A stretch of DNA of 44,978 bases from a virus: positions 1 through 44,978 of the IMG/VR virus record IMGVR_UViG_3300021378_000045; one strand, given 5' to 3'. Shown here piece by piece: positions 8,261 to 30,083 of this stretch (its first letter is position 1; every line of letters begins with the position of its first letter). The notes under the pieces are model-generated. The model worked only from the letters and a program-made list of their open reading frames with translations, was not told where the DNA came from and did no database searches. A program made the translations under genes and the position numbers.

Positions 8261-8905
8261 TTAAATTAATTCAGTTTTCCTCCAATTTGTTGGTATAATA
8301 TTTATATTATACTTTTCACATAAAATTGTTAAAGACCATCCTTCTCCATATCCAATTTTACCATCAGCTACATACTTGTCTGTTCTAGTTCTATCGGATG
8401 TACTAAACATTTTTTCAAGTGGGTCTTGTAGGATAGAAATATCTTGTGAAATATCTTGTATATTGTTTAGGTATGGAAATGATATGAATGCTTCTGGAAT
8501 ATATCCATCGCCAATAGTATTTAATCCTACTTTTGATAAAAGGGGTTTTATTTTTTCTTTAAAGCCACCTCCAAATACTTTTATAAAATCAGTATCAATC
8601 AGATTATAATGATAATAACAATACAAACTCATATCATCATATTCTAAATTGGTATTAACTTTACTTAACCAATCAGCATCTACATATGTGATTCGTTTTT
8701 TAAGCTTCGATGATACCGTCATTATATGATTTAATTTCTCATAATAGCTAAATACATCTCTATTATAAGTGTAGTTAATACAATTTGGAAAGTATGTTGG
8801 ATTATCTGTTAGGATGTGGACTGTTTCTGTTTCTGCGAAAGTATTTATAGAATTATAATATTTTTCACACCATTCACTACCAATACACATTGTTGCGTAA
8901 ATCAT
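8261..8905 (-). CDS. Probable glycosyltransferase (GT-A-like), 214 aa
   Basis: The N-terminus MIYATMCIGSEW resembles the first strand of a GT-A nucleotide-sugar domain, and ITYVDADWL (73-80) supplies a D-x-D metal-binding motif at D76 and D78. Late GYGEGWSLTILCEKY fits an acceptor-side helix. The overall style matches glycosyltransferase-like proteins of marine phages that sit near virion genes. The sugar and acceptor are unknown. It could decorate virion or host-surface glycans with the adjacent sulfotransferase. Confidence 0.6.
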   Translation of the reverse strand: MIYATMCIGSEWCEKYYNSINTFAETETVHILTDNPTYFPNCINYTYNRDVFSYYEKLNHIMTVSSKLKKRITYVDADWLSKVNTNLEYDDMSLYCYYHYNLIDTDFIKVFGGGFKEKIKPLLSKVGLNTIGDGYIPEAFISFPYLNNIQDISQDISILQDPLEKMFSTSDRTRTDKYVADGKIGYGEGWSLTILCEKYNINIIPTNWRKTELI

Positions 8906-8969: not shown

Positions 8970-9707
8970 TTATATAAGCGACCAACTTCCTTTACCTTGA
9001 TATTTTTTACGGTCTAGCTTCATTTTTGTAATTTTCCTCTCTTTTTTAGACATTTCACCTATAAAATCTAATGAGTCTTTGAAAAGAGTTACTTTATCTT
9101 TCTTTCTGTATTGAGTTTTTACTTTAGAATTATAAAATATGTCTGCTAAATTTTCTGGGAGGTTAAGTCTTTCTGATATTCGAGTACAATCTTCATACAT
9201 TTTAGAACCTGGACCTGAATCCTTGCTATAAGTAATATAGTCATCGGTAATAAGTTTATCGTTTAAAGAATATATACGCCAGTTTTGTTCACTAACATTA
9301 TTTTTACCTCTAACTCTTTGTTGTTTTAATATTCTAACCCAATCGTTAATATTATCTGGAAGTGAATTTGGCCAAAGTGCTCTTTGAAAGAAGTATCTAC
9401 TAACAAAGAGGTCAACTGGCTCTCTAATAATTGTAAATTTAAAATAAGAGTCAAATATATCTTTATCTTTATATTGAGGTGCTTCTAGAAACTTTAATAA
9501 ATCTGCAGCAGAACTATGATTTACTAGTCCATCAGCATTTTTATTTCTCAACCCTAAGTTATCTCTAAGTGCTTCTTCTTTGTCAGACATTATTCTGGTG
9601 ACAATATCATCATCAGTTGAAAATTTTGAAAGAGCAATTTCCATGCTAGTTCCTCCAACTTTATAGCTTTTGAAGAAAATAAACTCGTACTTGTGGTTTA
9701 TTATCAT
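8970..9707 (-). CDS. Sulfotransferase-family protein, 245 aa
   Basis: It has both PAPS-binding signatures: the 5'-phosphosulfate loop FKSYKVGGTSME (12-23, with K16 and T20-S21) and the 3'-phosphate motif IIREPVDLFVSRY (93-105, with R95 and S103). The spacing matches cytosolic and carbohydrate sulfotransferases of the Sulfotransfer_2 type. It would transfer sulfate to a glycan or other hydroxyl. Neighbouring glycosyltransferase and putative virion genes suggest a surface glycan as acceptor (inference). Confidence 0.75.
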   Translation of the reverse strand: MIINHKYEFIFFKSYKVGGTSMEIALSKFSTDDDIVTRIMSDKEEALRDNLGLRNKNADGLVNHSSAADLLKFLEAPQYKDKDIFDSYFKFTIIREPVDLFVSRYFFQRALWPNSLPDNINDWVRILKQQRVRGKNNVSEQNWRIYSLNDKLITDDYITYSKDSGPGSKMYEDCTRISERLNLPENLADIFYNSKVKTQYRKKDKVTLFKDSLDFIGEMSKKERKITKMKLDRKKYQGKGSWSLI

Positions 9708-9898: not shown

Positions 9899-10555
9899 TT
9901 ATTTAGTTTTATGAACGATTAAATGTCCTACAATATAATTATCTCCACTTGTTGGAGTCAGTTTGTACATAGGAGTACTTTTTGCTATATAGTTCTGTTC
10001 TAAATGAGCATTTGTTTTTGATGGGTCATTGTTAATATCATTTACATCTAAATTAATTGAAGTAAACTCAATTCCCTCAATACGTCTATAACAACTTTCA
10101 GCTCCTTCAGATATACTACCCGATGCTTCTAATGAATTTAGATAAAATCTATCAGCAACTACTCCAACTGTACCTTCTGATAGTGTGGAATCACCATGAG
10201 GAATACATTGATAACCATCTTGAGTGTAAATTAACGTATCTACTGAGTGTTTTGATTCTGTAAATAGTTGACCATGTTCATCACCAACATAATATACACC
10301 ATAAGCTCTACTTCCTTCTCCCATATTATAATTGATGTAATCTTCTACTATTGAAGAAGAATCTATACTTGCAATTGTAGATGTACCAAACGTTCCTACG
10401 TTCATACCAGTCCCATCAGCTCCATTTCCTTCACTAAATGTAAATGTACCAGTACCTTCGGTATAAGTCATTATACTTTCACCAACTACTAATTCATTAA
10501 ATGATTTATATGAACCATCTGCTAATCTAACTTTACTATACGGTAAAAAACTCAT
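9899..10555 (-). CDS. Stand-alone Hint-fold protein with Ser in place of Cys1, 218 aa
   Basis: Almost the whole protein matches a Hedgehog/intein (Hint) layout. Block A is SFLPYSKVRLADGSYKSFNE (2-21), followed by LVVGE. Block B is FTESKHSVDTLIYTQDGYQ (about 115-133). Blocks F/G are MYKLTPTSGDNYIVGHLIVH (about 196-215). The first-residue nucleophile aligns with Ser2 directly after Met1, and the end is HKTK rather than HN. It is therefore probably inactive in self-cleavage, or starts with a Ser nucleophile after Met removal. It lies immediately downstream of the 653-aa protein with an intact-looking Hint domain and has an AGGAG ribosome-binding site. Confidence 0.6.
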   Translation of the reverse strand: MSFLPYSKVRLADGSYKSFNELVVGESIMTYTEGTGTFTFSEGNGADGTGMNVGTFGTSTIASIDSSSIVEDYINYNMGEGSRAYGVYYVGDEHGQLFTESKHSVDTLIYTQDGYQCIPHGDSTLSEGTVGVVADRFYLNSLEASGSISEGAESCYRRIEGIEFTSINLDVNDINNDPSKTNAHLEQNYIAKSTPMYKLTPTSGDNYIVGHLIVHKTK

Positions 10556-10569
10556 ATTTTATTCTCCTA

Positions 10570-12531
10570 TTATTTATTATGTACTACAACAGAACCTGCT
10601 ATATAATTGTGAAGTCCTTCAACTGTAAAATTGTAAACCGGTGTATCTTCATCTGCAAATTCTATTTCTATACTTTTTATTTTAACATATCTATGAACAT
10701 CTTCAGTATCTTCTCTTGAATCCATCATTACTAATTCATCACCAGTAGTTAATATTTTAACTTCTTCTCCACCAGCCCAAGGTTCTTGATTAACCAATGG
10801 TGCTAATGCTTTCCAACCATCTTTTGTTAAGAACGGGTGTTCTGGTGTAAATCTAATTCCTAAATCATTTCCACCCTCATCGGTTCCATCCTCTTCGAGA
10901 AATATTTTAAAGAATCCGGCAGTTCCATATCCACATTCTCTACAACCTTCTATGTGGTCTCCAACAGTATGTCTATGGTCTATATCAGTTACAACACCTT
11001 CTGTAAATGTTTGTAGTTCTTCATCCCAACTTCCTACTACATCACCCACTACAATATCTTCTATGTTTTTGGTAGGTTGTTCCTCTCCCATCACAATTTG
11101 AGTTCCTGCTGCAAAACAAGTAGCTCCATAGTTGTTGTGTGCTACTAAAAATACACCCGTATTATCTATTAAGTATGTATCTTCAGTTTCCATGTTTAAC
11201 TCAAATGTTTTTTCTTCTGAACCGAATACTATAATACTATTTTCTACAATATCTAATCTCGAACCACTTGCTGTAAATAATTGATGTCTACCTACTACTA
11301 TATCACCAGTCAATTCAAATTTTACTTTATCTTCTAATGAATCATAAACCAATAGTGGTAATCCACTTCCAACCATTACAGTATTATCATCTGATGAACT
11401 TATTTGTGATAAAACTCCATATTCTAATGAATGTGATTCTTTACTTACAAGAGTAGATGAGGTGATATTAGTTTCACCTGGTAAGGTATTACCATCAAAA
11501 GACCAACTTAATATGGTTCCCATATCATCAACATCGGGAAGACCTGCAATATCTAAAGATTTATATGTGTTACCTATTGAAGTTGCATATGCTGGTATAA
11601 GTGTACCATCAGTAGCATCTTGTAAGCTTGATGAAGAAAATACACCTGTTGTATTTTTCCAATTCTCTTTTGGCCAATTGGTTGCAAATTCATATCTGTG
11701 TTTGTTTTCTATTTTATTTAAAAGAACATCATTATCCATTACAAGGGGAACGGTTGGTACTTCTAACCATGATTTTATTTTATACATACCAACATTAACA
11801 ATATTTAACTCACTTCCAAATAATATATTACAACTTCTATATGAATGCATAGTATTAGTATCTTCAGAAGTATCAAAATATGTTGACCAAATTTCACCAT
11901 CATTGTAATTAGATGCAATTATGGAAGTATATCTATCCTCTATTGAGTCACCATCAACACCATCGCCTATTTTATAGAAGTTTAGTTGAGCTCCATTATT
12001 AGAAAATCTACCTTCTTTAACTGCAAAATCAGGAGTCATAGAATTATTTGTAGTTCTAACTAAGGTATCACCAACATAGCTATCAGCTGATGAGGATATG
12101 TAATGAGGAATTATATCAGCTGATGAGGTTTCATCTGAATATAGTTTATATAAGTTTACACCATTACTACAATACTCACTATCAAATATAGCTGCTTCAT
12201 TGTAAGCCATTCTCAAAACAAATTTAGTAGCACTATCTTGTACATCTGTTGGATATATAGTTTCCATAGTTTCTTCAGTTTCTTCAACTGAGAAAGTAGT
12301 TGTTGCGGCTGTTAAAGCTTCTTTTAAGTTTTTTACTAAATATTCTTGAAATGGTTTGTGTACAATGTGTACACTATCTATTGAAGCTGAATCTAATTGT
12401 TCAATAAATGGGTCCCAATCAAAATGCATTAGTGATGCTGATGGGAAATCAGTATCGGTATTTAATTCCAATAACTTGAAGCCATCAAATTCTGTTTTAA
12501 TATAATCGGCTGAGTAGAGTGTACCTTTCAT
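10570..12531 (-). CDS. Putative virion protein with C-terminal Hint domain, 653 aa
   Basis: Residues 1-471 are Ser/Thr/Asp-rich, beta-strand-rich and look like a phage structural or fibre protein, without a recognised family. Residues 472-653 form a Hint domain: block A CFAAGTQIVMG with Cys472 preceded by ATC, NIEDIVVGD, block B FTPEHPFLTKDGW (about 561-573), block F VYNFTVEGLHNYI and block G VVVHN, with only one residue (Lys) after the Asn. No Cys, Ser or Thr follows HN, so complete splicing is unlikely. N-S acyl shift and cleavage at Cys472, as in bacterial intein-like domains, is the expected chemistry. A CRECGYG pair lies inside the Hint insertion. Confidence 0.7.
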   Translation of the reverse strand: MKGTLYSADYIKTEFDGFKLLELNTDTDFPSASLMHFDWDPFIEQLDSASIDSVHIVHKPFQEYLVKNLKEALTAATTTFSVEETEETMETIYPTDVQDSATKFVLRMAYNEAAIFDSEYCSNGVNLYKLYSDETSSADIIPHYISSSADSYVGDTLVRTTNNSMTPDFAVKEGRFSNNGAQLNFYKIGDGVDGDSIEDRYTSIIASNYNDGEIWSTYFDTSEDTNTMHSYRSCNILFGSELNIVNVGMYKIKSWLEVPTVPLVMDNDVLLNKIENKHRYEFATNWPKENWKNTTGVFSSSSLQDATDGTLIPAYATSIGNTYKSLDIAGLPDVDDMGTILSWSFDGNTLPGETNITSSTLVSKESHSLEYGVLSQISSSDDNTVMVGSGLPLLVYDSLEDKVKFELTGDIVVGRHQLFTASGSRLDIVENSIIVFGSEEKTFELNMETEDTYLIDNTGVFLVAHNNYGATCFAAGTQIVMGEEQPTKNIEDIVVGDVVGSWDEELQTFTEGVVTDIDHRHTVGDHIEGCRECGYGTAGFFKIFLEEDGTDEGGNDLGIRFTPEHPFLTKDGWKALAPLVNQEPWAGGEEVKILTTGDELVMMDSREDTEDVHRYVKIKSIEIEFADEDTPVYNFTVEGLHNYIAGSVVVHNK

Positions 12532-12565: not shown

Positions 12566-12931
12566 CTAAAGTATTGTTTCCTTAATGTTTTTAAGTGTTC
12601 TATGTTCTTTTTGTTTTAAATTTCTTTTTATGAACTTACTAATTTTACCACAAATTTCATATTTTTCGTTATTTTTAAACCAATTTAATGATATATTGAG
12701 TAATTCACCAAAATCTTTTCTTTCTATTTTAATAACGGCACCTGCGTGGGGATGTACTAACATAACTAACTCATTCTGGTCACCCCTAACGTTTGCTCTA
12801 TTTATTTCTGAAGAAATTTGCCATAAAACATCATTTCCTCTTGATTCAAGAAACGTTTTTGCTCTTGGATTTACATTTACATCTAAATATTTTCTCCAAT
12901 CAACTGTACTAAATGCGCTACTTTTTCTCAT
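12566..12931 (-). CDS. Hypothetical protein, 121 aa
   Basis: MRKSSAFSTVDWRKYLDVNV at the N-terminus, a central beta strand pair (ELVMLVHPHAGAVIKI) and a very basic C-terminal helix (ISKFIKRNLKQKEHRTLKNI). The basic tail could contact nucleic acid. It lies among putative virion genes. No family is recognised. Confidence 0.55.
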   Translation of the reverse strand: MRKSSAFSTVDWRKYLDVNVNPRAKTFLESRGNDVLWQISSEINRANVRGDQNELVMLVHPHAGAVIKIERKDFGELLNISLNWFKNNEKYEICGKISKFIKRNLKQKEHRTLKNIKETIL

Positions 12932-14099: not shown

Positions 14100-15146
14100 T
14101 TATATTATTTTAAAATCTATAAAATTAATAATATTTTTTATTGAATCTTTTAATCTATCTGTTCGTAACGTATTTATACCATTTTCTAAATATACGATTA
14201 CCTCTTTCTTTTCAGCTACTGATAGGGTTTTTATTGAATATTTTTTAGGGTGTGTTACAAAGTTATTAATATGAAGTTCATTTTCATTATGTATTAAGTT
14301 TAATTCAAATAACTGCTCTATAAATTCATATATATCTTTTACATTATACGTTCCAACTGTGTAAGAGATGTGTGTTTTTATATTATTATCATGTAGAGTT
14401 TTAATATTCTTTATAAGTTTATCTGTATTTAATCCGATTCGTATAGCTTCACCCTTTTCATATAACCCATCTAAGCTTACTTGTACTAAAACTTCTTTAA
14501 AATCTTTCCACAATAAAAATAAATCATTAACATCATATTTTATAACAGATAAGTTTGTGTTATATATTATTGATATATTCCTATTGTACTTATGTAAAAA
14601 ACTTAAAAGTTCGAAATGTTCTTTAGTAATTAAAGGCTCTCCACCTGCGAAATATATGTGTTTTATATTTTTTATATATGGAATCAACTCATCTACAAAT
14701 CCATCTTTTATATTTATCACTTTACCTATTCCAAGTTCTTTATGTTTATCCGTATAGTGCATAGATGAATATTCATGACTACACATTATACACTTAAAGT
14801 TACATAGGTTTGAGAACCTAACATCTATATACTCAAAGTTAGGAGTTATATATCCATCAGTATCCATATCATGTTTTGATGATAATTCTTTTCTCCAATT
14901 CTGCCTTAGTGATTCTATACCAACTCGTTCGGTATCCCAACATATTTTACATAGTTCATTCTGTACACCGTTTGTTAAATCTAATCTAAGTTTTCTGAAT
15001 TCTTTACTATTGTAAGCTTCTTCTATTGTTTGGGTTTTTAAACTGATTGGGTTTTTAAAATATCCTGAAATACAACATGCTTTTAGTGTACCATTCGTAT
15101 GTGTGTATAGATGTTTAAATGGTAGAGGGCAGAATACATCTTTCAT
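14100..15146 (-). CDS. Radical SAM protein with extra N-terminal Cys cluster, 348 aa
   Basis: The radical SAM cluster motif is C115-x3-C119-x2-C122 (CNFKCIMC), followed by the SAM-binding GGEP at 168-171. Before the core, Cys residues 6, 24, 25, 66 and 69 (CPLPF, CC, CKICW) look like an auxiliary Fe-S-binding module normally found at the C-terminus of SPASM/twitch enzymes. Such twitch-type proteins are common in marine phages. Their substrates are unknown, with peptide or glycan modification suspected. The ATG overlaps the stop of dCMP deaminase (TAATG). Confidence 0.8.
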   Translation of the reverse strand: MKDVFCPLPFKHLYTHTNGTLKACCISGYFKNPISLKTQTIEEAYNSKEFRKLRLDLTNGVQNELCKICWDTERVGIESLRQNWRKELSSKHDMDTDGYITPNFEYIDVRFSNLCNFKCIMCSHEYSSMHYTDKHKELGIGKVINIKDGFVDELIPYIKNIKHIYFAGGEPLITKEHFELLSFLHKYNRNISIIYNTNLSVIKYDVNDLFLLWKDFKEVLVQVSLDGLYEKGEAIRIGLNTDKLIKNIKTLHDNNIKTHISYTVGTYNVKDIYEFIEQLFELNLIHNENELHINNFVTHPKKYSIKTLSVAEKKEVIVYLENGINTLRTDRLKDSIKNIINFIDFKII

Positions 15147-15622: not shown

Positions 15623-16657
15623 CTATAATAAGTTCTTGCTTGATTTTGAAAAAATTTGATTATATGATGGAATTATTTCATAATCCATATCATAAAGTTT
15701 GTTTAGTTTACAAAGTATTCTGTGAAACATATATAAATAACCCGTTGTACTTGGGTGTCCTTGTAAATCTCTAGTAAGCTGAATATCTTTTTTTGATTTC
15801 ATTTTATCAATCCAACCTTCTGATATATCATCACTATCATCAAATGTTATAAAATGTTCTTTATTTATTTTACTAAATATAAACTGATTTTTTATAATAT
15901 CTGTAAATGGGAAATAATTTAAAAATAAATATTTTATACTATTTGATTTAAAATATTCTTGTAAAGCATATATGTTAAATGCGGTTGTCATTTCTCCAAT
16001 TGGGGGAGGTGCTAATTCTTTAAAATCAGTTACATCCCATGGTGTAGCAAAAAAAAGATGAGAACCATCAACACTATACAAATCACTAATATTTTCATCA
16101 GAGGGCTTTATTCCCATCCTTCGATTCATTCCCGATAGTTGTATTATCGCTAATTCGGGTTTTTTATTTTCATCCTTTAATTGTTCAATCGTACTAATAG
16201 TTTCCATAAACATATAATCATTACCTTTGCCTGATTTACCAAAGTTAAGGATATATGAAGTATCTTTTATCTTATCTAAAACTTCATAGTCTTTTTGATA
16301 TATTGATGGACGTGGATTTTTTTGAAATTCGTGATTAGAGTATGATACTGTATCTTGTTCTAATACAAGCTTATTATAAAAATAAAAATGCTGAGCCCAA
16401 TCTATTAATAAACGATGGTTTAGCTTAAAGATAGCTTCGTATTTATCTAAAACATCACCAGTTGAGTTAAAATAACTATCTTTAAACTTATATTGTTTTC
16501 CTATGGAATTTGAATATTCTATCCAATCATTTTTAGATGTAAATCCTCTATCATCCACATTTGAATATTTACCATACTCAATACCCAAGTTACCACTTGA
16601 TACTTTTTCAGTATGAGAACATCCATTTATGAATATTTTTTTTATATAACTTCCCAT
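15623..16657 (-). CDS. SGNH-hydrolase-like protein, 344 aa
   Basis: Blocks of the SGNH/GDSL fold can be traced: block I FINGCSHTE (S14), block II NFGKSGKGNDYM, block III IIQLSGMNRR and block V LQGHPSTTGYLYM with the catalytic His. The block V Asp is less obvious than in classical GDSL enzymes. SGNH proteins de-acylate or transfer acyl groups on glycans, lipids or proteins. This is one of four such proteins in the window, all strongly divergent. It overlaps the preceding 68-aa gene by 16 nt. Confidence 0.6.
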   Translation of the reverse strand: MGSYIKKIFINGCSHTEKVSSGNLGIEYGKYSNVDDRGFTSKNDWIEYSNSIGKQYKFKDSYFNSTGDVLDKYEAIFKLNHRLLIDWAQHFYFYNKLVLEQDTVSYSNHEFQKNPRPSIYQKDYEVLDKIKDTSYILNFGKSGKGNDYMFMETISTIEQLKDENKKPELAIIQLSGMNRRMGIKPSDENISDLYSVDGSHLFFATPWDVTDFKELAPPPIGEMTTAFNIYALQEYFKSNSIKYLFLNYFPFTDIIKNQFIFSKINKEHFITFDDSDDISEGWIDKMKSKKDIQLTRDLQGHPSTTGYLYMFHRILCKLNKLYDMDYEIIPSYNQIFSKSSKNLL

Positions 16658-18550: not shown

Positions 18551-19300
18551 TCATATAATTCTATTTTTTTTAATATCTAAAACATTAAGAATGTTTTCTG
18601 CTACTTTAGTATGCCCTTCAGTATTTAAATGAGATGATATACCATCAAGTAAATTGTTCTTAGTTGACCACTCTAACATAGAATAATTCTTATTAAAGTT
18701 AATAAAGTTTCTTTTTTTTAATTCATCTTTATTTGGAAGAATATGAGGCCAATATAAAAATAGTATTTTATTATTAGTTGTATCAACCAATCTTTGGATA
18801 TCATCTACATCATCCATTAGGGAATTGAATGATTCGTTATCATCATAAAAGTATTTTAAGTATTGTTCATAGAAATCAAAAAGTTCAGGAAATATATCCT
18901 CAGGAAGATTAGCATCTACTTGTTTTGCAGCCCCATAAGTACCAATTCCACGAACCCTTCCTGCAATTTTACTTTTAGTATCTATTTCAAATTCTATATT
19001 TCCATCTTTTATTTGTGGTATTGTTTTTACAAATAAAGGTTGAAAATCTATGTACCTATCGTTTAAAGTACAATATAAATTTAATCTATGTAAATGCGTA
19101 AGCTGACATATAAATAAAGTATCAGTAGCTCCATCTTTTATAGAAGTTCTTATTGAAGATAATATAGATTTATTTGATTGACCAGGCCAAGCTTTATTAT
19201 CAACCGGAACCGATGGAATCTGTTTTCCAATAATAGCCCCATATGGTAAAGTACCTGTATTTGTGGAATATGAACATCCACTTATGATTATATTTTTCAT
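18551..19300 (-). CDS. SGNH-hydrolase-like protein, 249 aa
   Basis: Block I IIISGCSYST (S10), block II KAWPGQSNKSI (Gly in oxyanion position), block III CQLTHLHR (no clear Asn) and block V DGISSHLNTEGHTKVAENI, where Asp and His of the catalytic D-x-x-H region are placed as in GDSL esterases with the typical EGHTKVAE helix. It is related in layout to the proteins at 15623, 27611 and 37059 but diverged in sequence. The acyl substrate is unknown. Confidence 0.65.
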   Translation of the reverse strand: MKNIIISGCSYSTNTGTLPYGAIIGKQIPSVPVDNKAWPGQSNKSILSSIRTSIKDGATDTLFICQLTHLHRLNLYCTLNDRYIDFQPLFVKTIPQIKDGNIEFEIDTKSKIAGRVRGIGTYGAAKQVDANLPEDIFPELFDFYEQYLKYFYDDNESFNSLMDDVDDIQRLVDTTNNKILFLYWPHILPNKDELKKRNFINFNKNYSMLEWSTKNNLLDGISSHLNTEGHTKVAENILNVLDIKKNRII

Positions 19301-20944: not shown

Positions 20945-21991
20945 TTACAATAAAGATGATGTTTCTTTTTTAAAAAAACGTAAATTATCCAATAATGAAT
21001 TTTCAGAATATAATCTACTTAGCATATATGCTTTTAATTGATTTACCCATGTTACTAATTTGTAGTAATTATTTGGTTCATCTTCTAAATAAGTTTTAAT
21101 AAACTCAGATGTTTTTTTAATAGAATTATCAAATTCTCTAATTTCAGTATCAAATGGATGTAATGTATTAAATCCTATTGATTGTATCATATCAAGTATG
21201 AATGTGTGAATTGGTATAAAAGGAATACCCCCTAGTATCAGTCCATATGTTTTTTCAGTTAAAAAGTTATAATTACTTTTGGTTTCTAATGTTTCTATGT
21301 TTAATACTGCTTTTGTGTTGGGTAAAACTTTAAAGAAAAAATCTAATGGAAAGCTGGAATCTGTTAGTAATTTAATATTATCAAAATCATTAATTGCTTT
21401 TCTTATATTGTGCTGAGTTACCCCGTTTATCTTTTTTGAATCATTAAATAAGCTAAACTGATTTATAAAAATATCAGTATTATCTTTTAGCTTATTAACT
21501 AATGAACTCCTATAATCAGTTATTCTACTAAAGAAAAGTCCTAACTTGTAATTATGATTTATTTTGTGATGTACATTTTCATATTCTTTCCATATCCGTA
21601 TATCAGCATATTCGTTCCATACAAATAGGGTTTGGCTTAATAAAAATTTATTTCTAATATCATCAGATATATATCCACTACCCAACTTGTTAGATATTTT
21701 ACGAGTTTTATCATTCCTAAATAATCCAATAGTATTATATTTTTCACCATGAAATGTTAATATATTCGTGTGTGTATGTTCTTTATAATTTGGATTACCA
21801 TAAAATACATCGTGATAATAAAAACAATAATCATACTTTAGTTCATCACCACCCACATCCCAAGTAACTTTATATTGAGTATCTTTATATGTTATTATAT
21901 CTGTATTTTTATTACTATCTATTTTAGTATTGTGAAATAAGATATTAGTTAAGCCAATGGATTTAGTATTTTTTATTAATATGGTGACCAT
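20945..21991 (-). CDS. Probable glycosyltransferase (GT-B/fucosyltransferase-like C-terminus), 348 aa
   Basis: The segment YNFLTEKTYGLILGGIPFIP (about 244-263) matches the F-x-T-E-K-x-x-x-x-L-x-G-x-P nucleotide-sugar site of GT10-like and exostosin-like glycosyltransferases. Upstream, a nucleotide-free half (residues 1-130) carries Tyr/His-rich strands. It is followed by GNAT, 2OG-oxygenase and radical SAM genes transcribed in the same direction, suggesting a modification cassette. The sugar and acceptor are unknown. Confidence 0.55.
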   Translation of the reverse strand: MVTILIKNTKSIGLTNILFHNTKIDSNKNTDIITYKDTQYKVTWDVGGDELKYDYCFYYHDVFYGNPNYKEHTHTNILTFHGEKYNTIGLFRNDKTRKISNKLGSGYISDDIRNKFLLSQTLFVWNEYADIRIWKEYENVHHKINHNYKLGLFFSRITDYRSSLVNKLKDNTDIFINQFSLFNDSKKINGVTQHNIRKAINDFDNIKLLTDSSFPLDFFFKVLPNTKAVLNIETLETKSNYNFLTEKTYGLILGGIPFIPIHTFILDMIQSIGFNTLHPFDTEIREFDNSIKKTSEFIKTYLEDEPNNYYKLVTWVNQLKAYMLSRLYSENSLLDNLRFFKKETSSLL

Positions 21992-22549: not shown

Positions 22550-23068
22550 TTAAATCAAACTTCTATCATTATCAAAAAACCAAACCACTAAAGATTTTCT
22601 TTTTCCTTTTGTTACGGATGTAACTGAGTGTGATTCTTTGCTTCCATTATAAATAAGATAATCTCCTTTTTTTCGTAACCCATTTATTTTAACACCATTG
22701 ATATGAATATAACCACCTTCAAAATTATCTTCAAGTAAAATGTTTAAAGTTAGTTGAGAATTCTTGTCTATATGTGGAATTGTAGATGCTGGTGGTTCTG
22801 CTTCTACTATATGTAAACTTATTGCATCCCTTATATCTCTTTTAGTTATTTCAGATATGATTTTATTTAAATTTTTATTTCTAAAAGAATAATGTGTTAA
22901 ATTTGTATTTGTAATCTTACTATTATTTTCCTCTATTTTTTTAAAATCACTTACCAATGAAATTCTTTTTTCCCATTCTGATTTATTTACAGTTGGTGTT
23001 TTTGATAATTCATCTACAAGATTATTAAATATTTCTTTTGATAGTTTCATAAAAGTGGGTTTTTCCAA
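22550..23068 (-). CDS. 2OG-Fe(II) dioxygenase (prolyl-4-hydroxylase-like), 172 aa
   Basis: Double-stranded beta-helix with Fe ligands H99-x-D101 (TIPHIDKNSQ) and H147 (SKESHSVTSV), and R157 in KGKRKSLVVWF for 2-oxoglutarate. N-terminal 80 residues are helical. It hydroxylates an unknown substrate, probably protein or peptide. It is followed directly by a 2OG-independent tailoring neighbour, GNAT, and preceded by a radical SAM gene with no gap. One of three 2OG enzymes in the window. Confidence 0.8.
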   Translation of the reverse strand: MEKPTFMKLSKEIFNNLVDELSKTPTVNKSEWEKRISLVSDFKKIEENNSKITNTNLTHYSFRNKNLNKIISEITKRDIRDAISLHIVEAEPPASTIPHIDKNSQLTLNILLEDNFEGGYIHINGVKINGLRKKGDYLIYNGSKESHSVTSVTKGKRKSLVVWFFDNDRSLI

Positions 23069-23860
23069 TTAAATTAATTTAGTCTTATCTAAAATACTTA
23101 TAGCTCTTTCGTAATTCTTTATATCTTTTTTAATGTTTAAGCTAGACCATGTTTCTTCTCTTGGAAACCAATAACAAGTTTCGCATCTATTTAATGGTTC
23201 ATCCTTATTAACATCTTCTGCTGAGTTCCATTCTACAACTTCAATACGTTCATTCATTGTGATTACACAACGATATATACCTTCTTTGGTTAGTGCTAAA
23301 CACTCTTCATGTTGCCAACATCTTTCATAGTTTAGCTCTTTAGTATATAACGAATCTTCTTCAGTATTACCAAATCTTTCAGTTCCTCCCTTTTCTCCAT
23401 ATATCTGAAAGGTGCTCGTTGGATAAAATAAAACGTTTGAATGTTTAATTAACTTTTTGTAAACTGGACTACTTTTTATATGATATTTTATATCTCCTAA
23501 TTCGTTGTATTCAGATACTCGTATTATATCAAAGTTTTTACATACATTAACTACATCATCAGTAAATCGTAAACCATTAGTTACTAAAGTTAAAGTGTTA
23601 TAGCAATTTCTTTTAGTAGATACATAATCCACTATAACCTTGAAATCTTTATGTATCGTTGGTTCACCTCCTACAATTTTTAATTCATCTACTATTAAAT
23701 TATTTGATTCGAGGTTTGAAATGATTTCTTTTACATCATCTAATTTTAGATTTGGGATTGTTACATTACCACCATAGTCTAATACACTACAATTCTTACA
23801 ACTTAAATTACAAGAATTATTAATATATAAATCATAACTACCAGATAATAAAGTTTTCAT
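23069..23860 (-). CDS. Radical SAM protein with SPASM-like C-terminal cysteines, 263 aa
   Basis: Radical SAM motif C17-x3-C21-x2-C24 (CNLSCKNC), GGEP at 64-67, LVTNGL strand at about 93-98. The C-terminus has CWQHEECLALTKEGIYRC and CETCYW, a Cys set suited to auxiliary clusters as in SPASM/twitch enzymes. This short form is typical of phage and marine enzymes of unknown substrate. It follows groEL directly: the ATG is next to the GroEL stop region. Confidence 0.8.
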   Translation of the reverse strand: MKTLLSGSYDLYINNSCNLSCKNCSVLDYGGNVTIPNLKLDDVKEIISNLESNNLIVDELKIVGGEPTIHKDFKVIVDYVSTKRNCYNTLTLVTNGLRFTDDVVNVCKNFDIIRVSEYNELGDIKYHIKSSPVYKKLIKHSNVLFYPTSTFQIYGEKGGTERFGNTEEDSLYTKELNYERCWQHEECLALTKEGIYRCVITMNERIEVVEWNSAEDVNKDEPLNRCETCYWFPREETWSSLNIKKDIKNYERAISILDKTKLI

Positions 23861-29201: not shown

Positions 29202-30083
29202 TTATATTATTGATTTTGGTGTTGGTGTAATCATTTTGTGTTTTATATCAAATTTATCCCATAACTTTTTATATAATGGATATATCTCTGAAGTAGAAAA
29301 TTGGTTATATATTGGCCAATGAAAGAATCTGGCTTTAGTATTAATAAACGTATCTAAGTAATCAGGGTTAATAATCAATTCTTCTTTATCTTTTAGTTGG
29401 ATTGCATTAGGGTCATCTAATCCAGATTCAAATCCTATCTTAACTTTTGAATCGTTTAAGAACTTATAAAAAAGATATTGTTCCATGTATTGATTTAGGG
29501 TATCTTCGTTTTTTCCTATTATTGGTTTAACAAATTTATGTAACACTTCTATAACTTCTTTAATTATATCGAAATCAGAAACCATCATATAGCAATTATT
29601 TGGTATTGTGTTCCAATCCCATTTTTCATCTGTATATTTTGATTTATGGTGTTTGATATAATTTCTTAAGTAATTATGATATAGATATTCTATCTCTCTA
29701 AATGGAGTATGCCTTAATCCAAACTTTAATTCATAAAATCCATATGTAATTGAATCATCTCTCCATATAGGTTTTTTGGTAAGAATGGTATCCAAATCAA
29801 TATGTAAATATTTTCCTTTTTCGTATTTCATAGATAAGAGTTTAGCAAATCCCCAATTTGGTGAATCAAATTTCTCAAGTTCATCTAAAACGATTATTTC
29901 ACTAAACGGTATTTTATGTTTAATAAAAAAATTCTTACTTACCTCATCACAATATAATTTAGTATGGTTGTATTGGTTTGCAGAACTTACTGATATCATA
30001 GCCATATCAATAAAGTTATTTCCCCATCCCTTCGAGGAATGAGAATCTTCATCCATTTTTACCCATGTATAAATTATATTCAT
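29202..30083 (-). CDS. DxD glycosyltransferase, paralog 1, 293 aa
   Basis: KYLHIDLDTILTKKP places the metal-binding D96-x-D98 after a GT-A-like N-terminal domain (MNIIYTWVKM). Its position is identical to that in the neighbouring paralog, and both share NWG-x-x-K-L (about 76-82) before it and the MMVSDFD or LIVNNPK strand after. Product size and style match phage DUF6734-like glycosyltransferases. The donor and acceptor are unknown. Confidence 0.65.
   Translation of the reverse strand: MNIIYTWVKMDEDSHSSKGWGNNFIDMAMISVSSANQYNHTKLYCDEVSKNFFIKHKIPFSEIIVLDELEKFDSPNWGFAKLLSMKYEKGKYLHIDLDTILTKKPIWRDDSITYGFYELKFGLRHTPFREIEYLYHNYLRNYIKHHKSKYTDEKWDWNTIPNNCYMMVSDFDIIKEVIEVLHKFVKPIIGKNEDTLNQYMEQYLFYKFLNDSKVKIGFESGLDDPNAIQLKDKEELIINPDYLDTFINTKARFFHWPIYNQFSTSEIYPLYKKLWDKFDIKHKMITPTPKSII

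Follow-up and report, generated by a model that had tools for sequence, protein, structure and literature searches.

What can a Hint domain do when almost nothing follows it that could be spliced? The question is raised by P0001, a 653-residue open reading frame on the minus strand (10570-12531) of an IMG/VR virus record of 44,978 bases without annotated completeness; the window, as the term is used here, is the whole of this stretch. Among the window ORFs, Pfam recognises a PhoH protein, an NT5C-like nucleotidase, a radical SAM protein, a sulfotransferase, an HD-domain protein and others. Six tRNAs are present, and GroEL-, Hsp20- and deaminase-like ORFs were recognised from sequence. Gene order around P0001 is partly shared with two related loci, L004 and L010, and runs through the deaminase, ORFs of ∼320 aa and ∼120 aa, the P0001-type gene, PhoH (in L010) and the nucleotidase. 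At another locus, L061, a SET-domain protein (Pfam SET; 8358-8792, plus strand) is encoded just 3' of the P0001-type gene, and ORFs resembling it lie directly downstream of that gene in part of the family.

The features of P0001 and of the gene that follows it are these:

10570-12531, minus strand: whole ORF P0001, 653 aa
11662-12531, minus strand: circularly permuted ATP-grasp-like domain (GspS/YgiC/glutathione-synthetase type), residues 1-290, predicted from AF2, VIA and hhalign
12454-12507, minus strand: D9...E22-x-N24-T-D26, residues 9-26, matching the YgiC/GspS Mg-binding motif (RxD...ExNAD)
11134-11646, minus strand: Hint0, a degenerate Hint, residues 296-466; Gly at position 1, TxxH lost, H465-N466 kept
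11119-11133, minus strand: linker NYGAT, residues 467-471, joining Hint0 to the catalytic Hint (from sequence)
10576-11118, minus strand: catalytic Hint, A-type-BIL-like, residues 472-652 (Pfam, NCBIfam, family and PDB profiles)
11116-11118, minus strand: Cys472, block A nucleophile; Cys1 in 91/91 family domains
10933-10980, minus strand: His/Cys-rich insert, residues 518-533, D-H-R-H-T-V-G-D-H-I-E-G-C-R-E-C, shared with nine other Hints
10837-10848, minus strand: T562-P-E-H565, block B TxxH; 86/91 family domains
10576-10581, minus strand: H651-N652, block G; HN in 88/91 family domains
10573-10575, minus strand: Lys653, the sole residue after the Hint; +1 Lys in 46/49 last Hints
9899-10555, minus strand: stand-alone degenerate Hint-like protein, 218 aa (hhalign E 6.7e-6; family HMM E 3.3e-5)

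Hint domains in and beside P0001

The initial annotation described residues 472-653 correctly, although it did not state that the gene lies on the minus strand. It reported a C-terminal Hint with Cys472, a T-x-x-H block and a terminal VVVHN followed by Lys, and all of these are present; the domain also carries Y-N-F-T-V, and the protein ends V648-V-V-H651-N652-K653-stop. Profile matches are above chance: Pfam Intein_splicing gives an E of 9.8e-8, just under its curated cut-off, NCBIfam TIGR01443 (intein C-terminal region) passes its own cut-off, the phage-family Hint profile scores 118 bits on residues 472-652, and a PDB profile search with the Hint matched BIL and intein structures with E down to 2e-23. 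The D-H-x-H-T-V-x-x-H...C insert, located between blocks A and B, is shared by 10 of the 91 Hints, that of P0001 among them, and is a possible metal or redox site or switch.

The terminal Hint is not the only one, and Hint0, the ATP-grasp-like region and the downstream Hint-like ORF had all been overlooked. In an AlphaFold2 model of the whole of P0001 (alignment of 36 sequences, pLDDT 84), residues 293-468 match BIL domains with a Z of 19 and an rmsd of 1.6-1.8 Å over 138-141 residues. By profile the catalytic domain belongs to the same family as Hint0, and has the Hint fold on that measure. Many relatives also give a weak match at ∼290-460 to the family Hint profile, which derives from catalytic Hints. 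Position 1 of Hint0 is Gly in 31 of 36 members and TxxH is absent, while the terminal Asn is retained in 57/57 tabulated members, preceded by His in 54 of them. Judged by these motifs, Hint0 is a dead, non-catalytic Hint. L092 and L093 consist of the N-domain and a Hint0-like end only.

The 218-aa ORF starts 14 nt downstream of P0001. By hhalign its product matches the Hint profile from one end to the other (153 columns). Where Cys1 would stand, immediately behind the start Met, there is a Ser, and the protein closes with VHKTK and lacks a terminal HN; with these features it is a putative degenerate stand-alone Hint. Separate small Hint-like ORFs also lie downstream at four relatives (L058, L094, L097 and L101), and split-off Hints therefore recur. 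The one at L058 (9724-10224, plus strand), downstream of a tandem-Hint gene, stands free: all motifs are in place, 14 residues lead into the Hint, and the end reads HNKNL.

A different C-terminal feature, a tag-like K-x(1-2)-[LI]-[LI]-stop, closes many unrelated ORFs of the window and of the L027-L106 flanks. Within the window the ORFs bearing it, all on the minus strand, are 8261-8905, 8970-9707, 12566-12931, 14100-15146, 15623-16657, 18551-19300, 20945-21991, 22550-23068, 23069-23860 and 29202-30083; types include radical SAM, sulfotransferase, 2OG-oxygenase-like, SGNH-like and glycosyltransferase-like proteins. Ends in [LI][LI] occur in 86/250 (34%) representatives at 40% identity, where 3% would be expected and internal offsets give 2-5%; positions -3 to -5 show an excess of Lys. 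The tag is possibly a docking or sorting signal.

Relatives of P0001 and the residues flanking their Hints

Queries with the whole of P0001 recovered no relatives in IMG/VR viral contigs, so that queries with sub-domains and alignments were needed. The Hint region yielded 21 loci in viral contigs, and residues 1-300 of the relatives found first, aligned and used as the query, yielded 80 loci in IMG/VR viral contigs; besides the window's own gene there are 57 distinct ORFs of the family. No family relative was found among GenBank phages by tblastn or in phage DNA by blastn, nor in GTDB genomes with the patterns used. GenBank phage matches to the Hint region alone were weak, mostly to inteins in helicases and other proteins, and were set aside. 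The longest contigs with a P0001-family gene measure 213, 276 and 326 kb, and at least some of the phages carrying it are therefore jumbo-sized. The family is large and apparently undescribed, and belongs to uncultured phages.

The relatives share a common plan, in which the N-terminal 290 residues precede a row of Hint domains, with Hint0 followed by one to three catalytic Hints, set in tandem with spacers of 1-12 residues. Recent duplication within a protein is not supported as the origin of the rows, as the nearest relative of a Hint sits in another protein in 64/64 comparisons.

There are 91 full catalytic Hints in the set, with Cys1 in all 91, TxxH in 86 and the C-terminal HN in 88, and these residues are preserved despite divergence to about 30-40% identity. 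The +1 residue is Cys, Ser or Thr in 0/91 and mostly Lys or Arg; from background frequencies the chance of this zero is about 1e-6, ignoring relatedness, and none of the family counts are phylogenetically independent. The absent +1 nucleophile and virtual lack of a C-extein, reported in the initial annotation for P0001, where Lys653 is followed by the stop, thus extend across the family, and its expectation that ordinary splicing would not occur agrees with the Hint-Lys-stop end of most members. What it did not see are the tandem Hints of the family and the conservation of the trailing Lys. Lys comes after the last Hint in 46/49, with the stop directly next in 38, and internal Hints have a basic +1 residue in 31/42 (Arg 24, Lys 7).

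An unbiased DNA scan of all viral contigs for G-I-x-V-H-N-X-stop(TAA), with X free, gave 76 matches. X is Lys in all 52 that have a Hint domain and in none of the 24 that lack one, and the 52 span several unrelated carriers, judged by their differing N-terminal and tail sequences. Two trivial sources of the Lys were rejected. A general bias towards Lys before the stop is not seen, with 35/547 (6.4%) control ORFs on these contigs ending in Lys. An overlapping T4-like late promoter (TATAAATA) behind AAT-AAA-TAA is likewise not indicated: ORF ends spanning the motif number 4/602, and it is not enriched in the window. The Asn and Lys codons at the Hint end vary synonymously (AAT/AAC, AAA/AAG), and selection therefore acts on the protein.

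A second regularity concerns the residue before Cys1. Within the multi-Hint proteins it is Pro before the first catalytic Hint in 21/29 and Asn, from the HN of Hint0, in 7/29; before the last Hint it is Pro in 0/29. Most multi-Hint proteins have A-P or S-P as the linker between Hint0 and the next Hint, but most single-Hint proteins have 1-12 residues without Pro at this junction. Proline at -1 hampers the N-side acyl shift in inteins, and we therefore infer that the last Hint alone is meant for an N-side cut. Two- and three-Hint relatives would probably undergo one release per chain, at the last Hint, since only there is the N-side junction unblocked.

Hints were also observed on other proteins. 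L011 (2554-6441, plus strand) encodes a 1295-aa protein with another N-part and a single terminal Hint with HNK-stop. L020 (103-6687) and L022 (169-6510), both plus strand, encode collagen-like, fibre-type proteins with a Hint just before the C-terminal domain and Lys at +1; that C-terminal domain resembles an intramolecular chaperone, S74-like, judged from sequence only.

The N-terminal domain

The AF2 model of residues 1-290 alone (51 sequences) has a pLDDT of 88 and a pTM of 0.85. Its first six Foldseek matches belong to the glutathione-synthetase/GspS/YgiC families (E 1.5e-5), and matches with E <0.001 comprise only YgiC, glutathionylspermidine synthetase, homoglutathione synthetase and one related glutathione-synthetase-like protein. 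In the VIA comparison of the predicted model, Z is 7-10.8 for the first 27 rows, all of them glutathione synthetase, GspS, YgiC/YjfC, trypanothione synthetase or close kin, and 9-10.8 to the GSS/GspS/YgiC family; after row 27, other ATP-grasp enzymes including RimK/ArgX score about 5-6. The hhalign comparison with YgiC/YjfC/GspS gives an E of 2.2e-4, and the profile-profile alignment places S-A-D9...L-L-E22-L-N24-T-D26-T over R-L-D...L-L-E-N-N-A-D-T of YgiC. D9, E22, N24 and D26 are invariant across the 51 sequences, a pattern that matches the Mg-binding motif of ATP-grasp enzymes such as GspS and DdlB.

Pfam reported no family on the N-domain of six members, and a PDB sequence profile search with it returned no ATP-grasp match, only two insignificant matches (E 0.049 and 0.16). 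The ATP-grasp assignment stands on predicted fold and motif for this reason, and as no curated profile recognises the domain we do not claim full membership of the GSS/GspS/YgiC group. On the model we nonetheless predict with good confidence that residues 1-290 form a circularly permuted ATP-grasp domain of this kind. K172 is invariant in the 51 sequences and position 122 is Lys in 46/51 and Ser in P0001, their correspondence with ATP-binding lysines being tentative and aligned by eye; if position 122 is an ATP-binding Lys, the P0001 copy may be weak or inactive. The label 'phage structural-type' given to the protein earlier is not supported, the N-part being the ATP-grasp-like domain plus the pseudo-Hint at 296-466, with no virion-protein fold.

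P0001 shares the predicted fold and the D...ExNxD motif with YgiC/YjfC and glutathionylspermidine synthetase, but at ∼290 aa its N-domain is shorter than YgiC (∼386 aa), has no Pfam match and only tentative ATP-site lysines, and is fused to Hints. The E. coli proteins compared here carry the annotation peptide-spermidine ligase, an activity reported for YgiC and YjfC (Pederick 2023, cited in PMC12568646). ATP-grasp peptide ligases of the R2K clade, predicted protein modifiers, occur in jumbo phages (PMC7824862). The P0001 family resembles them as a predicted ATP-grasp enzyme of large phages; however, no Hint fusion is described in that paper, and P0001 has no R2K Pfam match.

Proposed self-processing and its alternatives

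The closest matches in sequence and structure are A-type BIL domains (Clostridium thermocellum BIL, 2lwy; Tetrahymena BUBL1 BIL2, 6y75/6tmm), which share with the catalytic Hint the Hint fold, Cys1, TxxH, the C-terminal HN and the lack of an obligatory +1 nucleophile. A-type BIL domains without a +1 nucleophile mainly give cleavage products (PMC7664689, PMC7765530, PMC5874633). Because the conservation pattern in the P0001 family is of this mostly cleaving type, we propose, as a reasonably probable reading, that P0001 is a self-processing ligase-like proenzyme whose ATP-grasp part is released from the Hint. Residues 1-290 would take the fold of a GspS/YgiC/glutathione-synthetase-type ATP-grasp amide ligase, its ligase activity and substrate being presumed, and the pseudo-Hint at 296-466 would now be part of the enzyme body. 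Once the Hint folds, the acyl group of Thr471 would shift to the Cys472 thiol, cyclisation of Asn652 would remove Lys653, and the thioester would be resolved by water, an amine or the freed Lys, so that the ligase-like part leaves the Hint.

How the thioester is resolved separates this proposal from two others that we regard as improbable. In a hedgehog-like transfer, an external amine or alcohol (a polyamine, a lipid or a surface protein) would attack the Cys472 thioester and the ATP-grasp part would become attached elsewhere. Conservation of Cys1 and TxxH, the lack of a C-extein to accept the N-part and the resemblance of the N-domain to enzymes using polyamines and other amines are all compatible with this. 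Hedgehog domains, however, depend on a C-terminal acceptor-binding region, whereas P0001 ends one residue past HN with no such extension, and the HN required for C-side cleavage is retained. Surface attachment of the N-part, suggested in the initial annotation, would be one form of this question of thioester resolution and is not specifically supported. Alternatively, Lys653 freed by Asn cyclisation could itself attack the thioester, leaving an enzyme that ends in ...Thr471-Lys. Such splicing with a single-residue C-extein would explain the conserved Lys (46/49 last Hints, 52/52 in the unbiased scan), and BIL aminolysis or splicing without a nucleophilic side chain is on record (Aranko 2013, cited in PMC7664689). 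Against this, a free amino acid would diffuse off faster than it would be likely to react, and internal Hints, which have an entire domain as their C-extein, also carry a basic +1 residue (31/42). The HN-K conservation could instead have a structural reason.

It is also unlikely that the Hint array is a folded but non-catalytic set, a docking or assembly scaffold in which active-site residues are kept for stability. Hint0 shows that a dead Hint is tolerated as a fold, some last Hints are degenerate, and PF08517 (AXH), a non-processing Pfam family, matches too; yet Cys1, TxxH and HN are near-invariant in 91 domains despite low overall identity. The least probable reading, to which we give little weight, is that the tandem Hints are a ribosomal device making very short peptides from the 1-12 residue linkers (RA, KF and RLPPT, for example; NYGAT in the window), which the ATP-grasp ligase would join or close into rings. 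Asn cyclisation of one Hint together with the Cys thioester of the next would excise the linker, leaving its amine free and its carboxyl end activated for joining to an amine or ring closure. Known members of this ligase class join short peptides to amines.

Each part of P0001 is of a known kind. Inteins in phage enzymes and the hedgehog Hog domain have the Hint fold and block A/B chemistry seen in P0001, but unlike inteins P0001 lacks a +1 Cys/Ser/Thr, a C-extein to ligate and an interrupted host protein, and unlike Hog it has a terminal HN and nothing beyond one residue after the Hint. In contrast to A-type BILs, which lie in variable, non-conserved bacterial proteins, the P0001 Hints sit on one conserved carrier family in phages, at the extreme C-terminus, with up to three catalytic copies behind a dead one and a near-invariant Lys-stop after HN. 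As the carrier context, a non-chemical feature, differs, we file the Hint as BIL-like rather than as a canonical BIL. What appears to be new is an ATP-grasp-like enzyme with tandem BIL-like Hints and the Lys-stop and Pro rules, in phages; we found no description of an ATP-grasp-Hint fusion or of tandem phage Hints in the open-access literature.

Hint domains without exteins have mostly been recorded and then left as puzzles. In the P0001 family the extein-less Hint has a defined partner, resembling an ATP-grasp amide ligase, and can be compared among 57 relatives. Two sharp rules apply as well: a Lys closes the protein after HN, and only Hints other than the last have Pro in front of Cys1. Taken together, these allow direct tests of what splicing-like chemistry does when it has nothing to splice. 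Should self-processing be shown, these phages would possess a multi-copy release switch built into a ligase-like enzyme, and its Hints would be a possible protein-engineering tool for cleavage without a leftover C-extein.
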